A stretch of DNA of 64,000 bases, taken from positions 62,001 through 126,000 of the forward strand of contig NZ_ML703268.1 in the NCBI RefSeq assembly GCF_008520305.1, given 5' to 3'. Below, piece by piece: positions 20,471-64,000 of this stretch. This stretch comes from Mesorhizobium sp. SARCC-RB16n (GTDB taxonomy: Bacteria; Pseudomonadota; Alphaproteobacteria; Rhizobiales; Rhizobiaceae). A program made the position numbers and the translations under genes. Positions within the stretch are counted from its first letter, which is position 1; the number at the start of each line of letters is the position of its first letter. Below the pieces are notes generated by a model, which had not been told where the DNA came from, ran no database searches, and worked only from the letters and a program-made list of their open reading frames with translations.

Positions 20471-20556
20471 GCGGACGTGGCGGAATTGGTAGACGCAAGG
20501 GACTTAAAATCCCTCGATCTCTGATCGTACGGGTTCGATTCCCGTCGTCCGCACCA
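20471..20556 (+). tRNA. tRNA-Leu (anticodon TAA)
   Basis: The acceptor stem is GCGGACG with CGTCCGC, discriminator A at 20553 and an encoded CCA at 20554-20556. The anticodon arm is AGGGA-CTTAAAA-TCCCT, anticodon TAA, and there is a variable arm of the class II kind between it and GGGTTCGATTCCC. It decodes UUA leucine. The tRNA appears to mark one end of a possible island, since part of it is repeated at 25001-25019. Confidence 0.97.
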
Positions 20557-53330: not shown

Positions 53331-53516
53331 GGCTGTCCCCGTGGCGGAACTGCCGCCGTCTTCCTGAGATAGTCGGTTTGTTCGGGAGGGCCAAGGGCTC
53401 GGCTAACGAATGTCGGCTCAATCGGAAACCACCGGCCAAATCGTCAGCTGTTTGCCTGTCGCAGCGCGTTTCGATATGGGGTCTGGCAGTCTTCAATGAA
53501 GGTCGGAACGGATCCC

Positions 53517-53933
53517 ATGAGCAAATCCCTCGTCACCTTCGTGGGCGTCGCGCATCCCTGGATGTGCGATGTGATGGGGCACATGAATGTGCGCCATTAC
53601 GCGGCGATGTTCGACGATGCCAGTTTCCAGCTGCTCGGCCATATCGCGGGACAGGACGGCAGCCAGGCATCACAAACCGGATGGGCCGACGTGCGCACCG
53701 AAATCGACTATCGCCACGAGACGAAGGCCGGCTCGCTGATCACAATCCGCTCGCATGTAGTGAAAATCGGCCGTACCTCCGTCAGCTTCGAACAGGTGAT
53801 GTCCGGATCGATCGATGGCATCGTCCATGCATCGAGTCGGACCACAACCGTGTGCTTCGATCTTGGCGCGCGCGCCGCGGTGGCGCTGGACGAGCCGATG
53901 CGCAACCGAGCTTCGGCCTTACTCATCGAATAG
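53517..53933 (+). CDS. Acyl-CoA thioesterase (hotdog fold, 4HBT type)
   Basis: The 138-residue protein has CDVMGHMNVRHYAAMFDDAS, the variant D-x-x-GHxN-x-x-Y active-site helix of 4HBT thioesterases. It is related in size to betainyl-CoA and similar thioesterases that sit with BKACE enzymes in carnitine-type degradation. It converges on the lysR gene, and the BKACE operon lies on the other side of the regulator. ATG 53517 is preferred to ATG 53496. Role in CoA-ester hydrolysis of that pathway is inferred. Confidence 0.85.
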   Translation: MSKSLVTFVGVAHPWMCDVMGHMNVRHYAAMFDDASFQLLGHIAGQDGSQASQTGWADVRTEIDYRHETKAGSLITIRSHVVKIGRTSVSFEQVMSGSIDGIVHASSRTTTVCFDLGARAAVALDEPMRNRASALLIE

Positions 53934-53946
53934 ACCCGCGTCGGCC

Positions 53947-54906
53947 TCAATCGCCGTAGATGCGATCCTGCAACGGCGTTTTGGCGATCAGGGCCTGAAT
54001 TCCGGACAGTAGCGCCTGCTCGGCGCGATTCATCGCCTTGTCGGGATTGGTCAGCAGGAAGATGTCGATCGCCGGCGGCGCATCGTAAGGCGGCAGCCGC
54101 CACAGCACGCCATCGGCCACGTCGCGCCGCGCGACATGCAGCGGCAGCGGACCGATGCCGAGCCCGGCGACGATCATGCGTCGCACCTCCTCCAAGCTCG
54201 AAGACACGCCGACGACGTCGGCATTCAGCTTGGCCTCGCTGCGCAGCAACGCCACGGGCCGCAAGGCGTCCGAAATGTGGTCAGTCTGGAAGGATACGGA
54301 TGGCTCGCCCCGCAGATCGGCAAGCGTCAGCCCAGTTTTTCCGTAGAGCCTGTGTTGCGGGCCGCAGAAAAAACCGAAGAACTCGCGATAAACCATCGCG
54401 TAGTCCAGTGCCTGATCGCGCTGGCTGACGAGGCAGATGCCGAAAGAGGCGCGACGCTCCCGCACCTGCTTGGCGACTTCCGTGCTTGCCGCGACCGAGA
54501 TAGTGATGGAGGCGCGCGGGTAGTTGCGGTGAAACTCCGCCAGCGCCCGGTCGAAGAGTGGCGAGACCACATGGCTGGCGGTCGCGACCATGACGTGGCC
54601 GGTGACGTCGTCGCTGATCCCACGCATCAGCAGCGGCAGTTGCGATATGGTGCCGAACACCTCCACGCTCTGCTCATAGATCAGGCGCCCGACCTCGGTG
54701 AGTTCGAAGCGTGTCGCATCGCGCTCGACCAAGCGTCGGCCAACGCGGTCTTCCAGGCGCCTCAGCGCATTGCTGACGCTGGGTTGCTTGAGGTTGAGGC
54801 GCTCGGCGGCGCGCGTGATGCTCTTCACTTCGGCGATGACGACGAATGTGCGCAACAGGTTCCAGTCGAGGTCCCAGACCAGACGTTCGGGGCGCGGCAA
54901 TGCCAT
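53947..54906 (-). CDS. LysR-family transcriptional regulator
   Basis: The 319-residue protein has a helix-turn-helix domain (about 12-70) with ITRAAERLNLKQPSVSNALR and RLEDRVGRRLVERDATRFEL, and a C-terminal effector-binding domain (about 95-300, SRVLP-like ISVAASTEVAKQVRERRASF). It lies divergent from an ABC importer operon and presumably controls it in response to its substrate or a metabolite. ATG 54906 is used. Confidence 0.92.
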   Translation of the reverse strand: MALPRPERLVWDLDWNLLRTFVVIAEVKSITRAAERLNLKQPSVSNALRRLEDRVGRRLVERDATRFELTEVGRLIYEQSVEVFGTISQLPLLMRGISDDVTGHVMVATASHVVSPLFDRALAEFHRNYPRASITISVAASTEVAKQVRERRASFGICLVSQRDQALDYAMVYREFFGFFCGPQHRLYGKTGLTLADLRGEPSVSFQTDHISDALRPVALLRSEAKLNADVVGVSSSLEEVRRMIVAGLGIGPLPLHVARRDVADGVLWRLPPYDAPPAIDIFLLTNPDKAMNRAEQALLSGIQALIAKTPLQDRIYGD

Positions 54907-54941
54907 TCCTGATATCTATGCTCCCTATTCCCATTATCTAT

Positions 54942-54960
54942 TTGCGCAATGCTTGGGCAA
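54942..54960. promoter_or_regulatory. Possible LysR operator in the divergent promoter region
   Basis: TTGC-N11-GCAA lies between the lysR start and the importer operon. LysR proteins often bind interrupted palindromes of this size, though T-N11-A itself is not exact. Low confidence. Confidence 0.3.
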
Positions 54961-55042
54961 AGGCAATCATTGACATCAGGAGAGCGCCCCAACGCCTCCC
55001 AAGAACAGGCCATCGCGCTCCATCCAGAGGACAGAAATTCAG

Positions 55043-55825
55043 ATGAACAAGGTATTTTCCGGCATCGCGGTTGCCGCGCTGCTGCTTGCGTCGACCTTCA
55101 CGGCCGTTTCGTCCAGAGCCGACGATCTCGAAAAGATCAAGGCGGCGGGCGAACTGAAGATTTCCATGAGCGGGCAGTATCCGCCCTTCAACTTCGTCAA
55201 CGACCAGAACGAGGTCGTCGGCTTCGACGCCGACATCGGCAAGGCCATCGCCGAACGCATCGGCGTCAAGGGCATCATCATCACCGCCGCCTGGGATGGC
55301 ATCATCGCCGGCCTGCTCGCCAACAAATACGACACCGTCGTCGGCTCGATGACGGTCACGCCGGAGCGTGAGAAGGTGGTCGATTTCGTCGGCCCCTACT
55401 ATCACGCCGGCCGCGCGGTCTTCGTGAACCGGGATTCCAAGGTGCAGAGCCTGGACGACCTCAAGGGCAAGACGCTTGGCGTGACGCTGGGCGAGACGCA
55501 CGAGAAATGGGCGCGCGCGCAAGGTGGCTGGGACGTCCGCACCTATAAGGGCTTGCCGGAATTGTTGCTGGAATTGAAGGCGGGCCGTGTCGATGCCATC
55601 GTCGTCGACAACATTCCGGTCATGGTCGCCGTCAAGGAAACCGGCGAGAAGGTGCGCAAGCTCGACACGCCTGACATCGAAGGCGGCAGCGTCGCCATCG
55701 GCATCGCCATCCGCAAGGACAATCCGGAGCTCAAGGCCGCCATGCAGAAGGCATTGGACGGGATGATGGCCGACGGCACTTACGAGAAGATCTCCAAGCG
55801 GTGGGTCGGCAGCGACATTCGCTGA
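55043..55825 (+). CDS. Amino-acid-type ABC transporter substrate-binding protein
   Basis: The 260-residue protein has a signal peptide (about 1-27) and the family 3 solute-binding fold: ELKISMSGQYPPFNFVNDQN, GFDADIGKAIAERIGVKG and GSMTVTPEREKVVDFVGPYY. It binds a polar amino acid or related amine. First gene of an operon with two permeases and an ATPase, followed by catabolic enzymes, so the substrate is probably the one degraded by those enzymes. Confidence 0.92.
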   Translation: MNKVFSGIAVAALLLASTFTAVSSRADDLEKIKAAGELKISMSGQYPPFNFVNDQNEVVGFDADIGKAIAERIGVKGIIITAAWDGIIAGLLANKYDTVVGSMTVTPEREKVVDFVGPYYHAGRAVFVNRDSKVQSLDDLKGKTLGVTLGETHEKWARAQGGWDVRTYKGLPELLLELKAGRVDAIVVDNIPVMVAVKETGEKVRKLDTPDIEGGSVAIGIAIRKDNPELKAAMQKALDGMMADGTYEKISKRWVGSDIR

Positions 55826-55889
55826 TCCCTTCCGGTTTCAGGCGGCCGGGTCGCCTGAAAACCAAACGACATTCCTTCTGGGCCAACCC

Positions 55890-56537
55890 ATGGATTTCTC
55901 CTTGATGAGCCGTGTCTTCCCGTTCTTCGTGGAAGCGGCGTTCGTGACGCTGGAACTTACGGTGCTGGCCCTGGTTCTGGGGCTAGTTGCCGCCGCGCCG
56001 GCCGCAACCGCTCGGATGTCGAGATCGGCAATCCTGCGGACCATCGGCACCGTCTATGTCAGCCTGTTTCGCGGTACACCCTGCCTGATCCAGCTGTTCG
56101 TGCTCTATTTCGGCGGGCCGCAGATCGGCATCAACCTGGACCCGTTCGGGGCTGGCGTGATCGGCCTTGGCCTCAACATCGGTGCCTATATGGCGGAATC
56201 GATCCGAGGTGCGGTGATGGCGGTCGATCGCGGCCAGACTGAGGCTGCCCGCACGATCGGATTCAGCCGTTTCCAGACCTTGCGCAAAGTCGTACTGCCG
56301 CAGGCCGCTAGGCTGATGATCCGGCCGCTCGGCGTCAACACGGTCGCCTTACTGAAGGGTTCCGCGCTGGTGTCCACCATTTCGGTGGTGGAGCTGACCT
56401 ATACGGCGCAGCGTTTCATCGGCTCGACCTACAAGCCATTCGAGATTTTCGGCGTCGCGGCCCTGCTTTACATGATCATGGTCTACGCCGTCGCCCGCAT
56501 CGTCGACTTGCTCGACAAGCGCTTTGCCATCATCTGA
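55890..56537 (+). CDS. Amino-acid-type ABC transporter permease 1
   Basis: The 215-residue protein has about five membrane helices and the ABC permease EAA motif around GRGQTEAARTIGFSRFQTLR-type residues (ESIRGAVMAVDRGQTEAART). FRGTPCLIQLFVLYFGGPQI is the typical family entry. It pairs with the following permease to form a heterodimer. Confidence 0.92.
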   Translation: MDFSLMSRVFPFFVEAAFVTLELTVLALVLGLVAAAPAATARMSRSAILRTIGTVYVSLFRGTPCLIQLFVLYFGGPQIGINLDPFGAGVIGLGLNIGAYMAESIRGAVMAVDRGQTEAARTIGFSRFQTLRKVVLPQAARLMIRPLGVNTVALLKGSALVSTISVVELTYTAQRFIGSTYKPFEIFGVAALLYMIMVYAVARIVDLLDKRFAII

Positions 56538-56549
56538 CCGGGGAGCGTG

Positions 56550-57209
56550 ATGCAAGGTCTCGATTTCAGCGTTGTCGTGCCCTACTGGGACCTTCTTCTG
56601 ACCGGCGCCTGGTGGACAGCCGTGCTGACGGTCTCGGCTGGAGCCCTCAGTTTCGTCTTCGGCATCCTGTTTGCCGTCATCGTGCTCTATGCGCCGGCGA
56701 TCATTGCCTATCCCGTACGCGCCTTCATGTGGGTATTCATGGGTACGCCGCTGCTGCTGCAGCTTTTCCTGATCTATTTCGGACTGGTGCAGATCGGCAT
56801 CGATATCCCTGCCCTTGTCGCAGGCATTGTCGGACTTGGCTTCCACTTTGCCGTCTATAACGCTGACGTCATCCGCGCGGGCATCGTCGCGGTCGATGTC
56901 GGCCAGACGGAGGGCGCGCGCAGCATCGGCTTCGGCAAATGGCAGGCGCTGCACTATGTCGTGATACCGCAAGCCGTCCGTAACACGGCGCCGCCGATCG
57001 GCAGCAACCTGATCGCGTTGTTGAAGGAGTCTTCCATCGTCTCGGTCATCGGCATCGCGGAACTCGTTCACTCGGCGCAACTGGCGATCAGCGAAACGTT
57101 CCGCCCGTTCGAATTCTACATCACGGCCGCCGCGCTCTATTACATCTTGAACCTTGTGCTGGAAGCGGCCTTGCATCGGTTTGAACGGCACGTGGAGGTT
57201 TCTCGATGA
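56550..57209 (+). CDS. Amino-acid-type ABC transporter permease 2
   Basis: The 219-residue protein has [20 protein letters not shown] and the EAA loop [23 protein letters not shown] 56550 has GGGAG four bases upstream; a GTG one codon before is an alternative. Its end overlaps the ATPase gene by four bases (ATGA). Confidence 0.92.
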
Positions 57210-57970
57210 GCACGCAGTGGCCAATGGTGGAGGTTCGCGGCGCACGCAAAGCTTTCGGCGCGGTCGAGGTTCTCAGAGGCATCGACCTGTCGGTCCAGCG
57301 CGGGCAGATCGTGGCGATCATCGGGCCGAGCGGTTCCGGCAAGAGCACGCTGCTGCGCTCTATCAACCATCTCGAGACGTTGAACGGCGGTGAAGTCTGG
57401 CTGGATGGCGTGCAGGTCAACCAGAAGCTGCACGGCCAGGCCTTCGAGCGGCACATCAACAAGGTGCGCCAGCAGATGGGCATGGTGTTCCAGCACTTCA
57501 ATCTGTTCCCGCACCTGACGGTGATCCAGAACATCACCATGGGGCCGGTGATCCTGAAAGGCATGCCCAAAGCCGATGCCAAGGCGTTCGCGCAGAGCCT
57601 GCTGTCCAAGGTTGGGCTTGCCGACAAGATCGACGCCTACCCCTCGCGGCTTTCGGGCGGCCAGAAGCAGCGTGTGGCGATAGCGCGGGCTCTGGCCATG
57701 CAGCCCAAGGTGATGCTGTTCGACGAGGCCACCTCGGCGCTCGACCCGGAGTTGGTCGACGAGGTCAACGCGGTGATGAAACAGCTTGCCGCCGAACACA
57801 TGACCATGCTCATCGTAACACATGAGATGCGCTTTGCCGGCGAAGTCGCCGACCGTGTGCTGTTCATGGATGGCGGCGTGGTGGTGGAAGAAGGCCCGCC
57901 GGCCGACATCTTTCGCGCGCCGCGGAAGGAACGCACGCGCACCTTCCTCAAGAAATATCTTTCCGCCTGA
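57206..57970 (+). CDS. Amino-acid-type ABC transporter ATP-binding protein
   Basis: The 254-residue protein has a Walker [19 protein letters not shown], the Q-loop in [15 protein letters not shown], signature [19 protein letters not shown] and Walker [17 protein letters not shown]. It energises the importer encoded by the three upstream genes and is translated from an overlapping start. Confidence 0.95.
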
Positions 57971-57975
57971 GCAAG

Positions 57976-59619
57976 ATGATGACCAGATTGATCACTGAAT
58001 TTCCCGATTTCGGACTGACGCCCGAGCAGCGCCGTCATGCCGTGCGCGGCCACTATTACGAATGGCCAGGCATGGATGGCGAGCGCGGCGAGATCTGGTG
58101 CTATAGCGACCGGTTTTCGTACCGTACCGGTGAGACAGTTACACTGCACATCAGCTCGACCGCTCCGTCCTTCGGCATGACGATCGTTCGGGACGGCGGC
58201 ACCGAGACGAAAGTGTTCGAGAAGTCGGGCATCGCATCGCTCTGGCAGGACAGTCCGGACCAATGCTCGGCCGAAGGCTGCGGCTGGGAAGCCTCCTTCG
58301 AGTTTCGCGTGGGAAGTGACTGGCCGTCCGGCGCCTACCGCGTGACGCTGACCGCGGACGGACGCGACGGCAAGCCGATCCAATCCCACCATCTGTTCAT
58401 CGTCAGCCCGCAGTCTGGCAAGAAACCCGGCCGTGTGCTGCAGGTGGCGGCGACGGGCACCTGGCTTGCCTACAACACCTGGGGCGGTTCCAACCATTAT
58501 CAGGGCATCACCGGACCCGACCGGGACCAGTATTCGCCCATCGTGTCGACGCAGCGCCCCTGGTGCCGCGGCTTCGTCGTGCTGCCCGGGGATGCGCCGC
58601 GCGTGCCGCTGGAGGTCGCGGTGCTGCCGAAGACCGTGCCGCGCTACCCGCACATGGAATGGGCGCTCGCCACCGGCCATTCGAAGAAATACGCCTCGTC
58701 GGGCTGGGCCAGCTACGACAGCCATTTTTTTCGCTTTGCCGAGCGGGCTGGTTATGATGTCGACCTGACAAGCCAGCATGATCTGCATTTCTCGCCTGAG
58801 ATTCTCGACGGCTACGATTGCGCGGTCTTTGTCGGCCATGACGAATACTGGACCTGGGAAATGCGCGATGCAGTCGACAACTATGTCGAGCGCGGCGGCC
58901 ATGCGGCGCGCTTTGCCGGCAATTTCATGTGGCAGACGCGGCTCGAGGACGAGGGCCGTCGGCAGGTCTGCTACAAATACCGCGCCCGGGCCGAGGATCC
59001 CGCCTATCACGGCGGCGACGTGACACGCGCCACCAATTCCTGGGAAGCGCCCGAAATCGGCCGGCCGGGTTCAGCCACCTTCGGGCTCAATGCCACCCGT
59101 GGCCTTTACGCGGGCTGGGGCGGCTGTGCGCCGCGCGGCATCCGCGGTTTTCCAGTCTACCGGCCCGAGCATTGGGCCTTCGCCGGCACCGGCATCTATT
59201 ACGGTGACCTGCTCGGCGCCGACAGCCATGTCTATGGTTATGAGGTCGACGGGCTCGAATTCGAGCTACGCGGTGGCCTGCCCTACCCGACCGCGTCCAG
59301 CGGTGCGCCCGATGGCTTGCAGGTGCTGGCCGTCGGCATGGCAAGCCAAGTCGAAGAGAGCGCCGACATTCCGGTCGAGGACCAGTTCCTCACCGACGAG
59401 GATGGCCGCTTCAGCGCCGAGACGCTGTTTGGCGACAGAAGCAACGCCAATCTCGAAAAGGTCAAACGCAGCAATGGCATGATCGTCAATTTTCCACGCG
59501 GCAAGGGCGAAGTGTTTCACGCCGGAAGCTGCGAATGGGTTGCCGGCCTGCTAAGACAAGACCCGATGGTCGAACGGGTTACCCAGAATGTCCTCGATCG
59601 CTATCTTGGAAAGTCCTGA
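57976..59619 (+). CDS. N,N-dimethylformamidase large-subunit-like protein
   Basis: The 547-residue protein resembles the large (beta) subunit of N,N-dimethylformamidase, which hydrolyses the C-N bond of an amide with a mononuclear iron centre. Key sequence elements are CAVFVGHDEYWTWEMRDAVD, whose HxEYW block matches the active-site segment, and AGNFMWQTRLEDEG and ATGTWLAYNTWGGSN. It is shorter than known DMFases (over 700 residues) and no small alpha subunit is visible nearby, so the amide it acts on is probably different. It lies 5 bases after the ATPase gene. Confidence 0.8.
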   Translation: MMTRLITEFPDFGLTPEQRRHAVRGHYYEWPGMDGERGEIWCYSDRFSYRTGETVTLHISSTAPSFGMTIVRDGGTETKVFEKSGIASLWQDSPDQCSAEGCGWEASFEFRVGSDWPSGAYRVTLTADGRDGKPIQSHHLFIVSPQSGKKPGRVLQVAATGTWLAYNTWGGSNHYQGITGPDRDQYSPIVSTQRPWCRGFVVLPGDAPRVPLEVAVLPKTVPRYPHMEWALATGHSKKYASSGWASYDSHFFRFAERAGYDVDLTSQHDLHFSPEILDGYDCAVFVGHDEYWTWEMRDAVDNYVERGGHAARFAGNFMWQTRLEDEGRRQVCYKYRARAEDPAYHGGDVTRATNSWEAPEIGRPGSATFGLNATRGLYAGWGGCAPRGIRGFPVYRPEHWAFAGTGIYYGDLLGADSHVYGYEVDGLEFELRGGLPYPTASSGAPDGLQVLAVGMASQVEESADIPVEDQFLTDEDGRFSAETLFGDRSNANLEKVKRSNGMIVNFPRGKGEVFHAGSCEWVAGLLRQDPMVERVTQNVLDRYLGKS

Positions 59620-59620
59620 C

Positions 59621-61006
59621 ATGTCGAAAGTCCAGCCTGCCATTCAAGACACCGACGCCCGCCGCCAATCGCATTTGTTCTACCTATCCAGCCTGCGCCG
59701 GCCGCTGATCGACCGCGCCGAAGGCATCTATATGTGGACGCAGGATGGCCGCCGTTTCATCGACGGATCGAGCGGTCCGATGGTCGCCAATATCGGCCAT
59801 TCCAACCGTAATGTGCTCGATGCGATGAAGCGGCAGATGGACCGCGCCACCTTCGCCTACCGACTGCATTTCGAAAACGAGCCGGCCGAGGAGCTGGCGC
59901 GTGAACTTGCCGGTAAGCTGCCGGAAGGCATGGACCGCATCTTCTTCGTCTCCGGCGGGTCGGAGGCTACGGAATCCTGCATCAAGCTGGCGCGGCAATG
60001 GGCGGTGGCCACCGGCCAGGCGAGCCGCTGGAAGGTCATCACGCGCTTCCCTTCCTATCATGGCGGCACGCTGGGTTCGCTTTCGATCACCGGCGACGAC
60101 GCACTGGCCGAAAGTTTTACACCGATGATGCGGGTGATGCCGACCGTGCCGGCACCGACCGCCTGGCGCGACCGCGACAATCTCTCGATGGAGCAGCGCG
60201 GCATCCGTTACGCCGACATGCTGGAGGAAAAGATCCTCGCCGAAGGTGCCGAAAGCGTCGTCGCCTTCATCATGGAGCCGATCGGCGGCGCAGCGACCGC
60301 AGCGCTTGTCGCGCCAGACAGCTACTACGCGCGCATCCGCGAGATCTGCGATCGCTACGGCATCCTGCTGATCCATGACGAAGTGATGAGCGGGGCCGGC
60401 CGCACCGGCAAATTCCTCGGCGGCGACCACTGGAACTGCAAGCCTGATATCGTCGCGCTGTCGAAGGGGCTGGGATCGGGCTATGCGCCGCTCGGGGCAT
60501 TGGCGGCGCCGATGCGGCTGGTCGAGCCACTGCTCGCCTCCGGCGGCTTCCAGCACGGCCACACCTATGCCGGCAACCCGCTCGCCTGCGCCGCCGGGCT
60601 TGCCGTGCTTGGCGAAATGGACCGGCTCGACCTGATCGCCAATGCAGCTGCCATGGGCGACGTGCTGATGGACGGATTGAAGGGTCTGGCGAAGCGCTTC
60701 CCGTTCATTGCCGATGTGCGCGGCAAGGGCCTGCTGACAGGCGCCGAAATGGTCGCCGATCCCGATACGCTAAAGCCGATCGACCAGAGCAAGAAAGCGA
60801 CGCAACGGCTGCTCGACCTCGCCTATGAGCGCGGGCTGATCATCTATGGACGGAGGGTCAAGGGCGGCGTCGACGGCGACAATTTCATGGTCGCGCCGCC
60901 GATGATCGTCACCAGCGAACAGGTCGGCGAGATCATCTCGATCATCGGCGATTCGCTTGAGGTCCTGGCCTCCGAGCTCGACCTGCCAGTTGAAGGCCGG
61001 GGGTAG
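59621..61006 (+). CDS. Class III (omega-amino acid) aminotransferase
   Basis: The 461-residue PLP fold type I enzyme has GAEATES-type motif FVSGGSEATESCIKLARQWA, DEVMSGAGRTGKF and the PLP lysine in ALSKGLGSGYAPLGA. It moves amino groups from omega- or beta-amino acids, or amines, to an acceptor, giving an aldehyde or keto acid. Here it would feed the following BKACE enzyme if its product is a beta-keto acid. ATG 59621 follows one base after the preceding stop. Confidence 0.93.
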   Translation: MSKVQPAIQDTDARRQSHLFYLSSLRRPLIDRAEGIYMWTQDGRRFIDGSSGPMVANIGHSNRNVLDAMKRQMDRATFAYRLHFENEPAEELARELAGKLPEGMDRIFFVSGGSEATESCIKLARQWAVATGQASRWKVITRFPSYHGGTLGSLSITGDDALAESFTPMMRVMPTVPAPTAWRDRDNLSMEQRGIRYADMLEEKILAEGAESVVAFIMEPIGGAATAALVAPDSYYARIREICDRYGILLIHDEVMSGAGRTGKFLGGDHWNCKPDIVALSKGLGSGYAPLGALAAPMRLVEPLLASGGFQHGHTYAGNPLACAAGLAVLGEMDRLDLIANAAAMGDVLMDGLKGLAKRFPFIADVRGKGLLTGAEMVADPDTLKPIDQSKKATQRLLDLAYERGLIIYGRRVKGGVDGDNFMVAPPMIVTSEQVGEIISIIGDSLEVLASELDLPVEGRG

Positions 61007-61011
61007 AGGAA

Positions 61012-61941
61012 ATGGCGCCGCGAAAAGTCATCATCACTTGCGCCGTCACAGGCTCGGTGCACACGCCGTCGATGTCGCCCTATCTGCCGGTGACGCCGGA
61101 CCAGATTGCCGCGAACGCCATCGCGGCGGCCGAGGCCGGCGCCTCGATCCTGCATCTGCATGCCCGCGACCCCAAAGACGGACGGCCAACGGCCGATCCG
61201 GATGTCTACATGCAATTCCTGCCGCGCATCAAGCAGGCGACGTCTGCGGTCATCAACATCACCACCGGCGGCTCCTCGCTGATGACACTGGACCAGCGGC
61301 TTGCTGCACCGCTGCGCGCCGAGCCCGAAATGTGCTCGCTCAACATGGGCTCGATGAATTTCGCGCTGTTCCCGATGCTGGACAAGCCGCGGGAATGGCA
61401 GCACGAATGGGAACCGAAGCTGCTGGAAGCCACCCGCGACACCATTTTCAAGAACACCTTCGCCGACATGGAGGGTGTGCTTGAGAGGCTGGGCAAGGGT
61501 TGCGGCACCCGCTTCGAATTCGAGTGCTACGACGTCGGCCACCTCTATTCGCTGGCGCATTTCCGAGACCGTGGCCTGGTGTCGGGGCCGCTGTTCATCC
61601 AATTCGTGCTTGGCATTCTGGGCGGCATCGGCGCCGATCCCGACAATCTCATCCACATGAAGCGCATCGCCGACAAATTGTTCGGCGACAGCTATCAGTT
61701 CTCGGTGCTGGCCGCGGGCCGCAACCAGATGCCGTTGATCTCCATCGCTGCGGCCATGGGCGGCAACGTGCGTGTCGGTCTGGAAGACAGCCTCTACGAT
61801 GGCCGCCAGTTGGCGAAGTCCAACGCTGACCAAGTGCGCCGCATCCGTGGCATTCTCGATGGGCTGTCGCTGGAGGTTGCCACGCCGGCCGAAGCGCGCG
61901 ACATGCTGGCGCTCAAGGGCGGCGACCGGGTGGCTTTTTGA
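61012..61941 (+). CDS. Beta-keto acid cleavage enzyme (BKACE, former DUF849)
   Basis: BKACE enzymes condense a beta-keto acid with acetyl-CoA and release acetoacetate and a new acyl-CoA. The 309-residue TIM-barrel protein has the family motifs VIITCAVTGSVHTPSMSPYL, ILHLHARDPKDGRPT (zinc HxH) and NVRVGLEDSLYDGRQLAKSN (E ligand). Substrates vary from 3-keto-5-aminohexanoate to dehydrocarnitine, so the exact substrate is open. ATG 61012 has GAGGAA five bases away, coupled to the aminotransferase gene. Confidence 0.93.
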   Translation: MAPRKVIITCAVTGSVHTPSMSPYLPVTPDQIAANAIAAAEAGASILHLHARDPKDGRPTADPDVYMQFLPRIKQATSAVINITTGGSSLMTLDQRLAAPLRAEPEMCSLNMGSMNFALFPMLDKPREWQHEWEPKLLEATRDTIFKNTFADMEGVLERLGKGCGTRFEFECYDVGHLYSLAHFRDRGLVSGPLFIQFVLGILGGIGADPDNLIHMKRIADKLFGDSYQFSVLAAGRNQMPLISIAAAMGGNVRVGLEDSLYDGRQLAKSNADQVRRIRGILDGLSLEVATPAEARDMLALKGGDRVAF

Positions 61942-61950
61942 GACAAGACC

Positions 61951-62469
61951 GTGACTAATCCAGCCTCCAATGATGTCATCCTCCGCCCCGGCACCATCGA
62001 TGACGTCGAAACCATCCACGGGGCGATCCTGAAGCTCGGCACCCATATCGGCGCGCCCGAGGAAATCATCTCGACGGCCGACGATCTCAGGACCTGGGGC
62101 TTTGGCGCAAAGCCCGCCTTCTCGACCCTGATTGCCGAAGTCGATGGCGAATTCGCCGGGCTTTGCCTGCATTTTCCGATCTTCTCGACCTGGATGGGGC
62201 GGCCTGGCGTCTATGTGCAGGACCTTTACGTCGAGGACCGGTTTCGTGGCCGCAAGGTCGGCGAACGCCTGCTGCGGCGCGTGGCGGCCGAGTGCCGTAG
62301 GGATGGCGGCGTGTATCTGAGACTGTCCGTCGACACCGACAATGAGGGCGCCAAGGCCTTTTACGAGAGGCTGGGCATTGCCTGGTCGAGCTACGAGCAG
62401 ACGCAGAAAATCATTGGCGAGGCTTTTTTCGCCTTCGGCGACGCGCCGGAAAATGGAGAGCAGGAATGA
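61951..62469 (+). CDS. GNAT-family N-acetyltransferase
   Basis: The 172-residue protein has the acetyl-CoA-binding motif VYVQDLYVEDRFRGRKVGER followed by LLRRVA and a late GNAT segment NEGAKAFYERLGIAWSSYEQ. It may acetylate the amine substrate or an intermediate. The start is GTG 61951. Its stop overlaps the next gene by four bases, so production is coupled to the deacetylase-like protein. Confidence 0.9.
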   Translation: MTNPASNDVILRPGTIDDVETIHGAILKLGTHIGAPEEIISTADDLRTWGFGAKPAFSTLIAEVDGEFAGLCLHFPIFSTWMGRPGVYVQDLYVEDRFRGRKVGERLLRRVAAECRRDGGVYLRLSVDTDNEGAKAFYERLGIAWSSYEQTQKIIGEAFFAFGDAPENGEQE

Positions 62470-63494
62470 AAGCCTTCTATGCGCCGGAGCAGAAGCGGCA
62501 CGATCCCAGGGCCTTTCTTTCCAGCGGTGCGGCGCAGCCCAACCCTGAAAAACCGGAACGCGTCGAAAGATTATTAGCCGGCGCAAGATCGGCCGGCTAC
62601 ACGATCGAGCGACCGCGCAGTCATGGGCTTGGCCCGGTCTCCGCCGTGCATACGCCCGAATATCTCGACTTCCTCGAACATATTTTCGAACGCTGGCAGC
62701 GCATCGATGGGGCTTCGGCCGAGGTCATTCCCAATATCCACCCGATCGCCCGCAACGGCTCCTATCCGGCCTCCGCCGTCGGTCAGGCCGGATACCACAT
62801 GGCCGACACCGCTTGCCCGATCTCGGGCGAGACATGGCAGAGCGCGCTGTGGAGCGCCTGGAGCGCGGTTGAGGCGGCGGAAACGGTGATGGCCGGCGCT
62901 TCCGGCGCCTATGCGCTGTGCCGACCGCCTGGCCATCACGCCTTTGCCGATGTCGCCGGCGGCTTCTGCTTTATCAACAATTCGGCCGTCGCGGCACAAA
63001 TGCTGCGCAGACAGGCGGCCCGCGTAGCGATTCTCGATGTCGACCTGCATCACGGCAACGGGACGCAAGGCATCTTCTACGCGCGGCCTGATGTGCTGAC
63101 TGTCTCGCTGCATGCCGATCCGGTGCGCTTCTACCCGTTCTTCTGGGGCCATGCCGACGAGCGCGGTGAAGGTCCGGGACTTGGCTACAATTTTAACCTG
63201 CCGCTGCCGCGCAAATCCGCGAATGCTGCGTTTCTCGAAGCGCTCGGCGTGGCGTTCCAGCGTATCCGCGCCTTCTCGCCTGACGCGCTGGTGGTGGCAC
63301 TCGGCCTCGACGCCTTCGAGGGCGATCCGTTCGGCGGGCTTTCGGTGACGACGCCAGGCTTCTCACGTATCGGGGAGGCCATCGCCAGTCTCGGCCTGCC
63401 GACGGTCATCGTCCAGGAAGGCGGCTATCTCTGCGACGAACTCGGCGACAATCTCACCGCCTTCCTCACCGGTTTTGGCGGCAAGGCGCGGTGA
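62466..63494 (+). CDS. Histone deacetylase-like amidohydrolase (acetylpolyamine type)
   Basis: The 342-residue zinc hydrolase has the HDAC superfamily motifs LCRPPGHHAFADVAGGFCFI, ILDVDLHHGNGTQGIFY (Asp-His ligand set) and LGLDAFEGDPFGG. The YPFFWGHADERGEGPG insertion is typical of bacterial acetylpolyamine amidohydrolases. It would remove acyl groups from an amine, the reverse of the coupled GNAT enzyme, or open an amide in the pathway. ATG 62466 overlaps the GNAT stop. Confidence 0.92.
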   Translation: MKAFYAPEQKRHDPRAFLSSGAAQPNPEKPERVERLLAGARSAGYTIERPRSHGLGPVSAVHTPEYLDFLEHIFERWQRIDGASAEVIPNIHPIARNGSYPASAVGQAGYHMADTACPISGETWQSALWSAWSAVEAAETVMAGASGAYALCRPPGHHAFADVAGGFCFINNSAVAAQMLRRQAARVAILDVDLHHGNGTQGIFYARPDVLTVSLHADPVRFYPFFWGHADERGEGPGLGYNFNLPLPRKSANAAFLEALGVAFQRIRAFSPDALVVALGLDAFEGDPFGGLSVTTPGFSRIGEAIASLGLPTVIVQEGGYLCDELGDNLTAFLTGFGGKAR

Positions 63495-63509: not shown

Positions 63510-64000
63510 TCAGGAGCGTTGCTGCCTGAGCATGGCAATCACCCGGTGCACGCTCTCCAGCGTTTCGTCGATTTCGGACGCCGTATTGTAGTGCGCGATG
63601 CCGATGCGCACGACACCTTGCTCGGCCGGAATGCCGAGTTGGTGGACGATCTCCCAGGCATAGTTGTGGCCCGACCACAGGAAGATGTTTTCGGCGTTCA
63701 TTTGCCGCACAATGGTCTCGGGAACGATGCCATCGACGGTGAAGGAGACTGTCGGAACACGATCGACGAGGCGTTTCGGATCGGTGATGCCATGGATGGT
63801 CAACCCCGAAATATCGGACAGGCCATCGATCAACCTTTGCGCCAGCGGATTTTCGTAGGCGATGGAAATTTCGAACGCCTTGGCAATCCTGCGCCTTCTT
63901 GACCCACCCTCGCCGGCCGAGGCGCCGAGATCGGCAAAATAGTCGACAGCGGCGGTGAGCCCGGCCATCAGTTCGATCTGCGGCGTGCCGAGTTCGAAGC
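63510..64000 (-). CDS. Cysteine-desulfurase-like class V aminotransferase, C-terminal part (cut by window edge)
   Basis: The visible 163 codons run to the right edge on the minus strand. They match the C-terminal domain of the cysteine desulfurase-like family (AYENPLAQRLIDGLSDISGL, TVSFTVDGIVPETIVRQM and VRIGIAHYNTASEIDETLES). The PLP lysine and active-site cysteine lie outside the window. It converges on the HDAC-like gene, so it is probably not in that operon. Confidence 0.88.
   Translation of the reverse strand, partial: FELGTPQIELMAGLTAAVDYFADLGASAGEGGSRRRRIAKAFEISIAYENPLAQRLIDGLSDISGLTIHGITDPKRLVDRVPTVSFTVDGIVPETIVRQMNAENIFLWSGHNYAWEIVHQLGIPAEQGVVRIGIAHYNTASEIDETLESVHRVIAMLRQQRS

Follow-up and report, generated by a model that had tools for sequence, protein, structure and literature searches.

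A modular Mesorhizobium operon proposed to act in the catabolism of an amide of a β,ω-diamino acid, probably β-lysine

We describe an operon at positions 53517 to 63494 of a 64,000-nucleotide stretch of Mesorhizobium sp. SARCC-RB16n (contig NZ_ML703268.1, positions 62,001 to 126,000; hereafter the window), in which an amino-acid-type ABC importer is followed by an amidohydrolase resembling dimethylformamidase (DMFase), a class III aminotransferase, a β-keto acid cleavage enzyme (BKACE), a GNAT acetyltransferase and a deacetylase of the histone deacetylase (HDAC) fold. The operon is real, conserved and modular, and the full set of genes in the window is one assembly of a modular system. From the similarities of its proteins, we tentatively propose that it would serve the catabolism of a β,ω-diamino acid amide, with β-lysine as the likeliest diamino acid, a reading that may well hold but of which we are slightly more doubtful than sure.

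A conserved core in Mesorhizobium

Comparison with the open reading frame (ORF) list, Pfam and NCBIfam showed that the genes named in an earlier note on this DNA are all open, in the order and on the strand given there; the co-directional genes, which had been counted as eight, number nine (four for the importer and five others). The features are as follows.

53517..53933, plus strand: 4HBT_2 acyl-CoA thioesterase (PF13279, 60.8 bits)
53947..54906, minus strand: LysR regulator, divergent from the importer (Pfam, over cut-off)
55043..55825, plus strand: periplasmic binding protein, family 3, amino-acid type (SBP_bac_3; Pfam, over cut-off)
55890..56537, plus strand: ABC permease 1 (BPD_transp_1; close to EhuC, 191.4 bits against a cut-off of 196.95)
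56547..57209, plus strand: ABC permease 2 (NCBIfam)
57206..57970, plus strand: ABC ATPase (ABC_tran; Pfam, over cut-off)
57976..59619, plus strand: DMFase-like amidohydrolase of 547 amino acids, proposed N-acyl-β-amino-acid acylase (DMFA2_C, PF20254, 237.8 bits)
59621..61006, plus strand: class III aminotransferase, proposed N6-acetyl-β-lysine transaminase (Aminotran_3, PF00202, 307 bits)
61012..61941, plus strand: BKACE, proposed to cleave 6-acetamido-3-oxohexanoate (PF05853, 355 bits)
61951..62469, plus strand: GNAT acetyltransferase, proposed β-lysine N6-acetyltransferase (Acetyltransf_1, PF00583, 57 bits)
62466..63494, plus strand: HDAC-fold deacetylase, proposed 4-acetamidobutyrate deacetylase (Hist_deacetyl, PF00850, 251 bits)

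To define close loci we took the best 80 of 415 relatives of the DMFase-like protein, nearly all from Mesorhizobium and 86-95% identical, and compared the window proteins with them by tblastn; on the right-hand side of the DMFase-like gene 76 loci had sufficient sequence, on the left 75, and on both sides 72. The aminotransferase and the GNAT gene were each found in 76 of 76 loci, the HDAC-like gene in 75 and the BKACE in 47. Because the DMFase-like, aminotransferase, GNAT and HDAC-like genes recur together in 75 of the 76, their grouping is not chance. The LysR and thioesterase genes occurred in 18 of 75 loci; among the 72 loci readable on both sides, they were present in 17/46 bearing a BKACE against 0/26 without one (p 0.0001, kinship ignored). 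In 11 loci without the importer cassette, the gap between a small conserved gene and the DMFase-like gene measures 152-166 bp, and it is in this gap that the cassette of the window lies. These presence counts and the cassette gap identify the DMFase-like, aminotransferase, GNAT and HDAC-like genes as the core, while the presence of the BKACE and of the importer cassette varies from locus to locus. The expectation that the neighbourhood would be conserved was thus borne out for the four core genes, but not for the BKACE (missing from 29/76) or the importer (missing from 58/75).

Spacing within the operon is 64 bp between the binding protein and permease 1, 9 bp between the permeases and a 4-bp overlap between permease 2 and the ATPase, followed by 5 bp from ATPase to DMFase-like gene, 5 bp from aminotransferase to BKACE, 9 bp from BKACE to GNAT and another 4-bp overlap between GNAT and HDAC-like genes. 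The listed aminotransferase ORF opens at 59588, overlapping the DMFase-like gene, and the ATG at 59621, directly after the DMFase-like stop, fits better as the start. The thioesterase has two candidate ATGs, at 53496 (the ORF opening) and at 53517 (the start taken previously). Permease 2 was scanned against NCBIfam only and the ATPase against Pfam only; the binding protein matched 14 NCBIfam models, every one under its cut-off. On its own, the GNAT gene is a poor marker of the operon: a search with it matched 60 of 289 Alphaproteobacteria genomes, and partner genes lay within 1.5 kb in only 6 of the 30 loci taken, one of which was the known Mesorhizobium locus.

Some neighbours are recorded here in their own right. 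After the HDAC-like gene, a convergent gene on the minus strand (63510-63968), labelled CSD and by eye resembling a class V aminotransferase, is present in all 76 close loci. In one locus (L005:13985-14488; L-numbers are our labels for loci or plasmid stretches) and its relatives, a 167-amino-acid gene is inserted before the GNAT gene; we take it for a DUF523-like gene, and its cluster has 14 members in close loci. The sole tRNA gene found in the window is a tRNA-Leu (taa) at 20471-20556.

Exchangeable modules in farther relatives

When 398 Pseudomonadota genomes were searched with the aminotransferase, 23 matched at E 1e-110, and in 21 of these the identity was 58% or higher. For comparison we used 26 loci whose aminotransferase is at least 57% identical to that of the window, 18 from this search, five from the GNAT search (one of them also among the 21 matches) and three from plasmids. 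Loci L085, L086, L091 and L135-L139 were found via BKACE, DMFase-like or GNAT matches and are biased towards those genes, and the other 18 were found via the aminotransferase. Two loci with aminotransferases of 45-47% identity were left out: in L179 a CoA-transferase adjoins the aminotransferase and an HDAC-like gene lies 7 kb off, and L178 has no partner genes.

Exactly one cleavage route was present in 24 of the 26 loci, namely a BKACE in 20 and a CoA-transferase in four; none had both, and the two with neither both carry the Mesorhizobium-type core. The chance of no overlap between the two routes in 26 loci is 0.001, with kinship and locus choice ignored. Wherever it occurs in these loci, some of them distant, the BKACE directly follows the aminotransferase (20/26). 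Deacylases show a similar pattern, with an HDAC-like gene in 17 loci (two also with an ArgE-type gene), an ArgE-type gene without HDAC in seven, and neither in two, one of which is at a contig end. All four CoA-transferase loci carry ArgE, and three have a thiolase within 9 kb. BKACE and CoA-transferase therefore replace each other, as do HDAC and ArgE-type deacylase. A GNAT gene was present in 20 of the 26 loci and a DMFase-like gene in nine; the latter is not obligatory, being absent within 9 kb from 17 loci that include all those of the CoA-transferase and PotD types, and in Sinorhizobium medicae it lies about 2.6 kb from a CoA-transferase module.

The importer links the two chemistries. 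In Alisedimentitalea scapharcae a LysR gene faces a series running binding protein, two permeases, ATPase, aminotransferase, CoA-transferase A and B, ArgE, thiolase and amidohydrolase, in which the importer is 56-67% and the aminotransferase 61% identical to those of the window. Window-type importers stand with a BKACE in L163, L180, L181 and L085 and with a CoA-transferase in L168, L171 and L252; since the same kind of importer accompanies either route, this argues that both act on the same substrate. A LysR homologue on the opposite strand was found in all 12 related loci with an importer, six of the window type and six with a PotD-like importer (one scanned with models, the others assigned by similarity), and in L085 it sits at the other end of the locus. 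As a separate observation, a DAO-type FAD oxidase adjoins the aminotransferase core in L138, L139, L170, L172, L173 and L177, four of these six having the PotD-like importer, and two CoA-transferase loci also have such an oxidase.

Proposed pathway and competing explanations

Under the reading we favor, the importer would take up an N-acylated compound, from which the DMFase-like amidohydrolase, to judge by its nearest solved relative, would free the β-amino acid. The GNAT enzyme would acetylate the distal amine, thereby preventing cyclization and keeping the chain uncharged, and the class III aminotransferase would convert the β-amine to a ketone, giving 6-acetamido-3-oxohexanoate. With acetyl-CoA, the BKACE would then produce acetoacetate and 4-acetamidobutyryl-CoA, the thioesterase would release 4-acetamidobutyrate, and the HDAC-fold enzyme would deacetylate it to γ-aminobutyrate if the substrate is β-lysine, or to an ω-amino acid more generally. 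The sequence of import, hydrolysis, transamination, BKACE cleavage and thioester hydrolysis that the earlier note had laid out fits the data, and the roles of GNAT and HDAC have to be added to it; it gains from the DMFase-like protein's nearest solved relative being named for an N-acetyl-β-amino acid and from the exchange of BKACE for CoA-transferase, mostly with a thiolase nearby. Among the matches listed, no title or abstract opening in the open-licence literature described this pathway or compound.

For the DMFase-like protein, a single-sequence search of the PDB gave no match, while a profile built from 11 homologues matched N-acetyl-(R)-β-phenylalanine acylase (two sequences; 8I5A/8HUY, E 7.8e-18) and Paracoccus DMFase (three sequences; 6LVB, E 9.6e-16), five PDB sequences in all. 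Excerpts of a structural report place two Tyr and one Glu as iron ligands in the DMFase active site, together with His519, Asn547 and Glu657 (PMC7686228). DMFase residues Y399, H519, E521 and N547 correspond to Y166, H288, E290 and N316 of the window protein, all invariant in the 11 homologues. We propose that the protein may be an acylase freeing a β-amino acid with an acylated amine. Formamide use was considered and set aside, the top solved relative being a β-amino-acid acylase and DMFase only second, and carnitine-like breakdown was likewise set aside, as a carnitine 3-dehydrogenase is absent among the operon genes; neither kind of substrate, both brought up earlier, found support. Relatives of the DMFase-like gene also occur in other settings. 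In L184:35209-49901 and L089 it has its own importer and adjoins genes resembling those of ectoine catabolism (Xaa-Pro peptidase, Lrp, M20; in L184 also a cyclodeaminase, an aminotransferase and an aldehyde dehydrogenase, in L089 EutB), and in L081 and L084 proteins 50% identical to that of the window are paired with a long CoA transferase in place of the aminotransferase core.

The aminotransferase matches PDB entry 3I4J best. The closest PDB entries to the BKACE are 3E49, 3E02 and 8RIO, and its HLH (at 48) and GLE (at 256) motifs, presumably the metal site, are both present. At the position of the acidic E20 of Kce (chain 2Y7D), a residue that we take to bind the substrate amine, the window BKACE has V16, and the Kce model NF052387 scores it at 221 bits against a cut-off of 382; because this acidic residue is lacking, the enzyme would suit an acetamido rather than a free-amine chain. 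According to excerpts of the relevant reports, the Paracoccus denitrificans enzyme BKACE15 (8RIO) accepts uncharged β-keto acids and has at least four β-keto acid substrates (PMC11961710), and one group in a seven-group BKACE scheme comprises hydrophobic and uncharged polar substrates (PMC4922564), the group to which the window BKACE would apparently belong. The thioesterase, whose top NCBIfam match (27 bits, far under cut-off) is to the C-terminal portion of carnitine 3-dehydrogenase, is a candidate for hydrolysis of the acyl-CoA made by the BKACE. The HDAC-like enzyme has 3MEN as its top PDB match (351 bits), is nearest to acetylpolyamine amidohydrolases and contains GHH, DLHHG and EGGY, presumably its catalytic motifs; for GNAT, no NCBIfam model scored over its cut-off. 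The near-universal presence of GNAT and HDAC in close loci suggests acetyl protection of a second amine rather than a pair of side genes.

The link to lysine comes from sister modules on rhizobial plasmids. In Rhizobium sp. C104 a lysine-2,3-aminomutase-like gene directly precedes CoA-transferase A and B, ArgE, thiolase and GNAT, and its product keeps D293 and D330 of lysine 2,3-aminomutase 2A5H, which we assume to be the lysine-type Asp residues; in a second plasmid paralogue residue 293 is Arg and position 330 lies beyond the alignment. In Rhizobium bangladeshense a distance of about 7 kb, which includes two ATP-grasp-type genes, separates the module from an aminomutase. For the transaminase of the sister module in S. 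medicae, the closest solved structures are the β-transaminases 2YKU, at 436 bits, and 4AO9, at 411 bits. Nine rhizobial records with a C104-type ArgE at least 64.9% identical (among the matches listed, the best 40 of 750) all carry an aminomutase at least 79% identical; they include five of Sinorhizobium meliloti and represent five species. The band of 60-80% ArgE identity, of which 11 of 12 records were shown, holds two marine Rhodobacterales besides these nine. An aminomutase at least 78% identical is present in 13 records, and the four outside the nine, all S. meliloti, have no ArgE match among those listed.

A number of findings weigh against the β-lysine reading. No aminomutase (at least 45% identity to three queries, within 9 kb) stands beside the aminotransferase in the 26 loci, and none of the C104 type occurs in 27 Mesorhizobium-type genomes, where the best match is 49%. 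An aminomutase is directly beside the sister module on one plasmid only, and the transaminase of the plasmid sister modules belongs to a different class III branch from the window's. Thirty loci from other Alphaproteobacteria with aminomutase homologues of 55-74% identity (92 of 385 genomes matched) had no sister module within 1.5-kb flanks; some relatives adjoin genX/epmA, so these homologues are probably in part EpmB. Members of the KamA family were found in all eight Mesorhizobium-type genomes searched and in Escherichia coli as well, so their presence is uninformative. Among the operon enzymes, DMFase Y440 and E657 fall outside the aligned region, the aminotransferase is under the cut-offs of PRK06917 (421.7 bits against 535), which we take for the YodT-type transaminase, and of PRK07483 (422 against 485), and NCBIfam NF053538, named for a 3,5-dioxohexanoate enzyme, matches the BKACE at 520 bits against a cut-off of 430. 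Six of the 26 loci, including one that lies at a contig end, have no GNAT gene near the aminotransferase. Of the close loci, 29 of 76 lack the BKACE and 58 of 75 the four importer genes, which are present in the other 17. A paralogue making up for the missing BKACE is only suggested: 12 BKACE-less genomes had no close orthologue elsewhere in the genome and all 12 had a paralogue of 58-60% identity, but so had 10 of 16 genomes with an operon BKACE (p 0.02). Among other loci examined, an aminomutase locus of Paenibacillus showed no yod-like operon, a Deinococcus radiodurans plasmid has an aminomutase gene near a class III aminotransferase only 31% identical to that of the window, and PRK06917 and PRK06915 gave nothing over cut-off on three plasmids, each being over cut-off in one of 14 control genomes.

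The same logic could apply to another N-acylated β-amino acid (β-ornithine, another diamino acid or an aromatic β-amino acid), an explanation that we regard as possible if somewhat unlikely. The solved acylase and one β-transaminase relative are named for β-phenylalanine and the lysine link comes from sister modules only, but a conserved GNAT and deacetylase pair would have no obvious role in the absence of a second amine, and the sister-module aminomutase keeps both lysine-type Asp residues. A polyamine route, in which the HDAC would be an acetylpolyamine amidohydrolase, the aminotransferase a polyamine or β-alanine transaminase, GNAT a polyamine acetyltransferase and the BKACE a malonate semialdehyde enzyme, would agree with the nearest relatives of the HDAC and the PotD-like importer of six related loci, as well as with the in vitro acceptance of malonate semialdehyde by P. 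denitrificans BKACE15, described in an excerpt of PMC11961710. We nevertheless consider it unlikely, as the replacement of HDAC by an ArgE-type enzyme in 7/26 loci and of BKACE by a CoA-transferase in 4/26 is unsuited to polyamines, and by its similarities the alternative transaminase belongs with those for β-amino acids, which does not suit polyamines either.

It seems quite improbable that the operon combines unrelated functions and that its BKACE has 3,5-dioxohexanoate or a related β-keto acid as substrate: the NF053538 score, a model that also takes the BKACE of locus L173, and the many operons without a BKACE (29/76) speak for it, but the relative in P. denitrificans takes four or more β-keto acids in the excerpted account, so that the name is broad (PMC11961710), and the BKACE directly follows the aminotransferase even in some distant loci. 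Very improbable, in our view, is that the DMFase-like hydrolase and GNAT serve to detoxify streptothricin-like antibiotics that bear β-lysine. Streptothricins are β-lysyl amides, and GNAT faintly matches streptothricin acetyltransferase (24 bits against a cut-off of 420), yet this score is generic, with other acetyltransferases scoring higher, and the catabolic genes, the two kinds of importer and the carbon-cleavage enzymes point to nutrition.

A further extension of the β-lysine reading concerns the source of the compound. The operon might consume an undescribed, opine-like β-lysine amide made by rhizobia in nodules, with Mesorhizobium keeping the consumer operon in its chromosome, mostly without production genes; we consider this rather unlikely. 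Clusters of lysine-aminomutase-like radical SAM genes and ATP-grasp-type genes, a putative biosynthetic system, were observed on symbiosis and accessory plasmids of rhizobia (L133, L183-L187, L228 and L229), several of which also carry the sister catabolic module. ATP-grasp-like genes were present in all seven cluster contexts read, with aspartate-semialdehyde dehydrogenase in three and EctB in three; these genes are annotated as "acetyl-CoA carboxylase biotin carboxylase subunit family protein", one homologue as "ATP-grasp domain-containing", and we take them for putative ATP-grasp ligases. A diverged aminomutase at least 75% identical is confined to rhizobial records, 28 plasmids in number, and the match that follows them is at 37%. 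Four of these records bear a DMFase-like gene of 68-74% identity (S. medicae SU277, CB3090, CCGE532 and R. etli IE4771), and NodA is on five of seven diverged-aminomutase plasmids tested (6/12 of all tested). A scan of nine plasmid stretches (342 kb) found 9 σ54-type sites against 2.5 expected, to which we give moderate weight: four stretches (L134, L185, L186 and L228) had none, a single 15-mer in L229 is common to three of the nine sites, and the site in L133 recurs in L083 and so probably lies in a repeat. In Rhizobium leguminosarum such sites precede three ATP-grasp or aminomutase genes or operons. Since the diverged aminomutase occurs in only 2 of 27 Mesorhizobium-type genomes bearing the operon, the consumers, if a producer-consumer pair exists, would mostly be other strains.

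Comparison with known systems

With Paracoccus DMFase the window protein shares the four active-site positions given above, but it is 547 amino acids long against 775 for the DMFase large-subunit chain, the pentraxin region is missing, and no gene for a small subunit was noticed among its neighbours, although no dedicated search was made. N-acetyl-(R)-β-phenylalanine acylase, its top profile match, has a name that implies an N-acyl β-amino acid as substrate, and the main aligned stretch covers about 220 residues. If our reading is right, β-amino-acid acylases would be a natural role for the DMFase-like family.

In lysine fermentation, by an excerpted account, Kce cleaves a β-keto acid with a free amine, following a 5,6-mutase and a dehydrogenase (PMC3149608). 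The window operon would share with it a BKACE-family cleavage of a β-lysine-derived β-keto acid but has Val at the acidic position of the BKACE and no mutase or dehydrogenase genes. For Bacillus subtilis, the excerpted PMC6522883 gives yodT (BSU19740) and kamA (BSU19690) nearby locus tags, lists YodT with structure 3I4J and function unknown, and describes KamA as a lysine 2,3-aminomutase in vitro. That structure is also the top PDB match of the window aminotransferase, which is nevertheless under the PRK06917 cut-off and stands with BKACE and HDAC and no aminomutase. In the yodTSRQP-kamA operon, presumably, a CoA-transferase and an ArgE-type deacylase adjoin KamA. Our reading, if right, would suggest a job for YodT and describe one pathway with two exchangeable chemistries, BKACE or CoA-transferase and HDAC or ArgE.

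The nodule proposal would parallel the rhizopine system (mos/moc) in having production genes on symbiosis plasmids and genes for uptake and catabolism in soil relatives. The rhizopine in an excerpted report is an inosamine (PMC3538637), whereas an amino-acid amide would be traded here; if true, this would be a second rhizopine-like currency.

The proposed scheme corresponds to the aerobic N6-acetyl-β-lysine pathway of Pseudomonas, reportedly worked out in the Barker laboratory around 1979-81 (EC 2.6.1.65, EC 3.5.1.51), whose genes, to our knowledge, were never assigned. Its acetyltransferase, transaminase, cleavage and deacetylase/thioesterase steps each have a candidate gene in the window, where genes for an acetyltransferase, a class III transaminase, a β-keto cleavage enzyme and a deacetylase occur all together; the window differs in its BKACE cleavage, its HDAC-fold deacetylase and the preceding DMFase-like acylase. 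We know of no genes for N6-acetyl-β-lysine transaminase or for the deacetylation of acetamidobutyrate, and the window operon, if our reading is right, would supply candidates for both.

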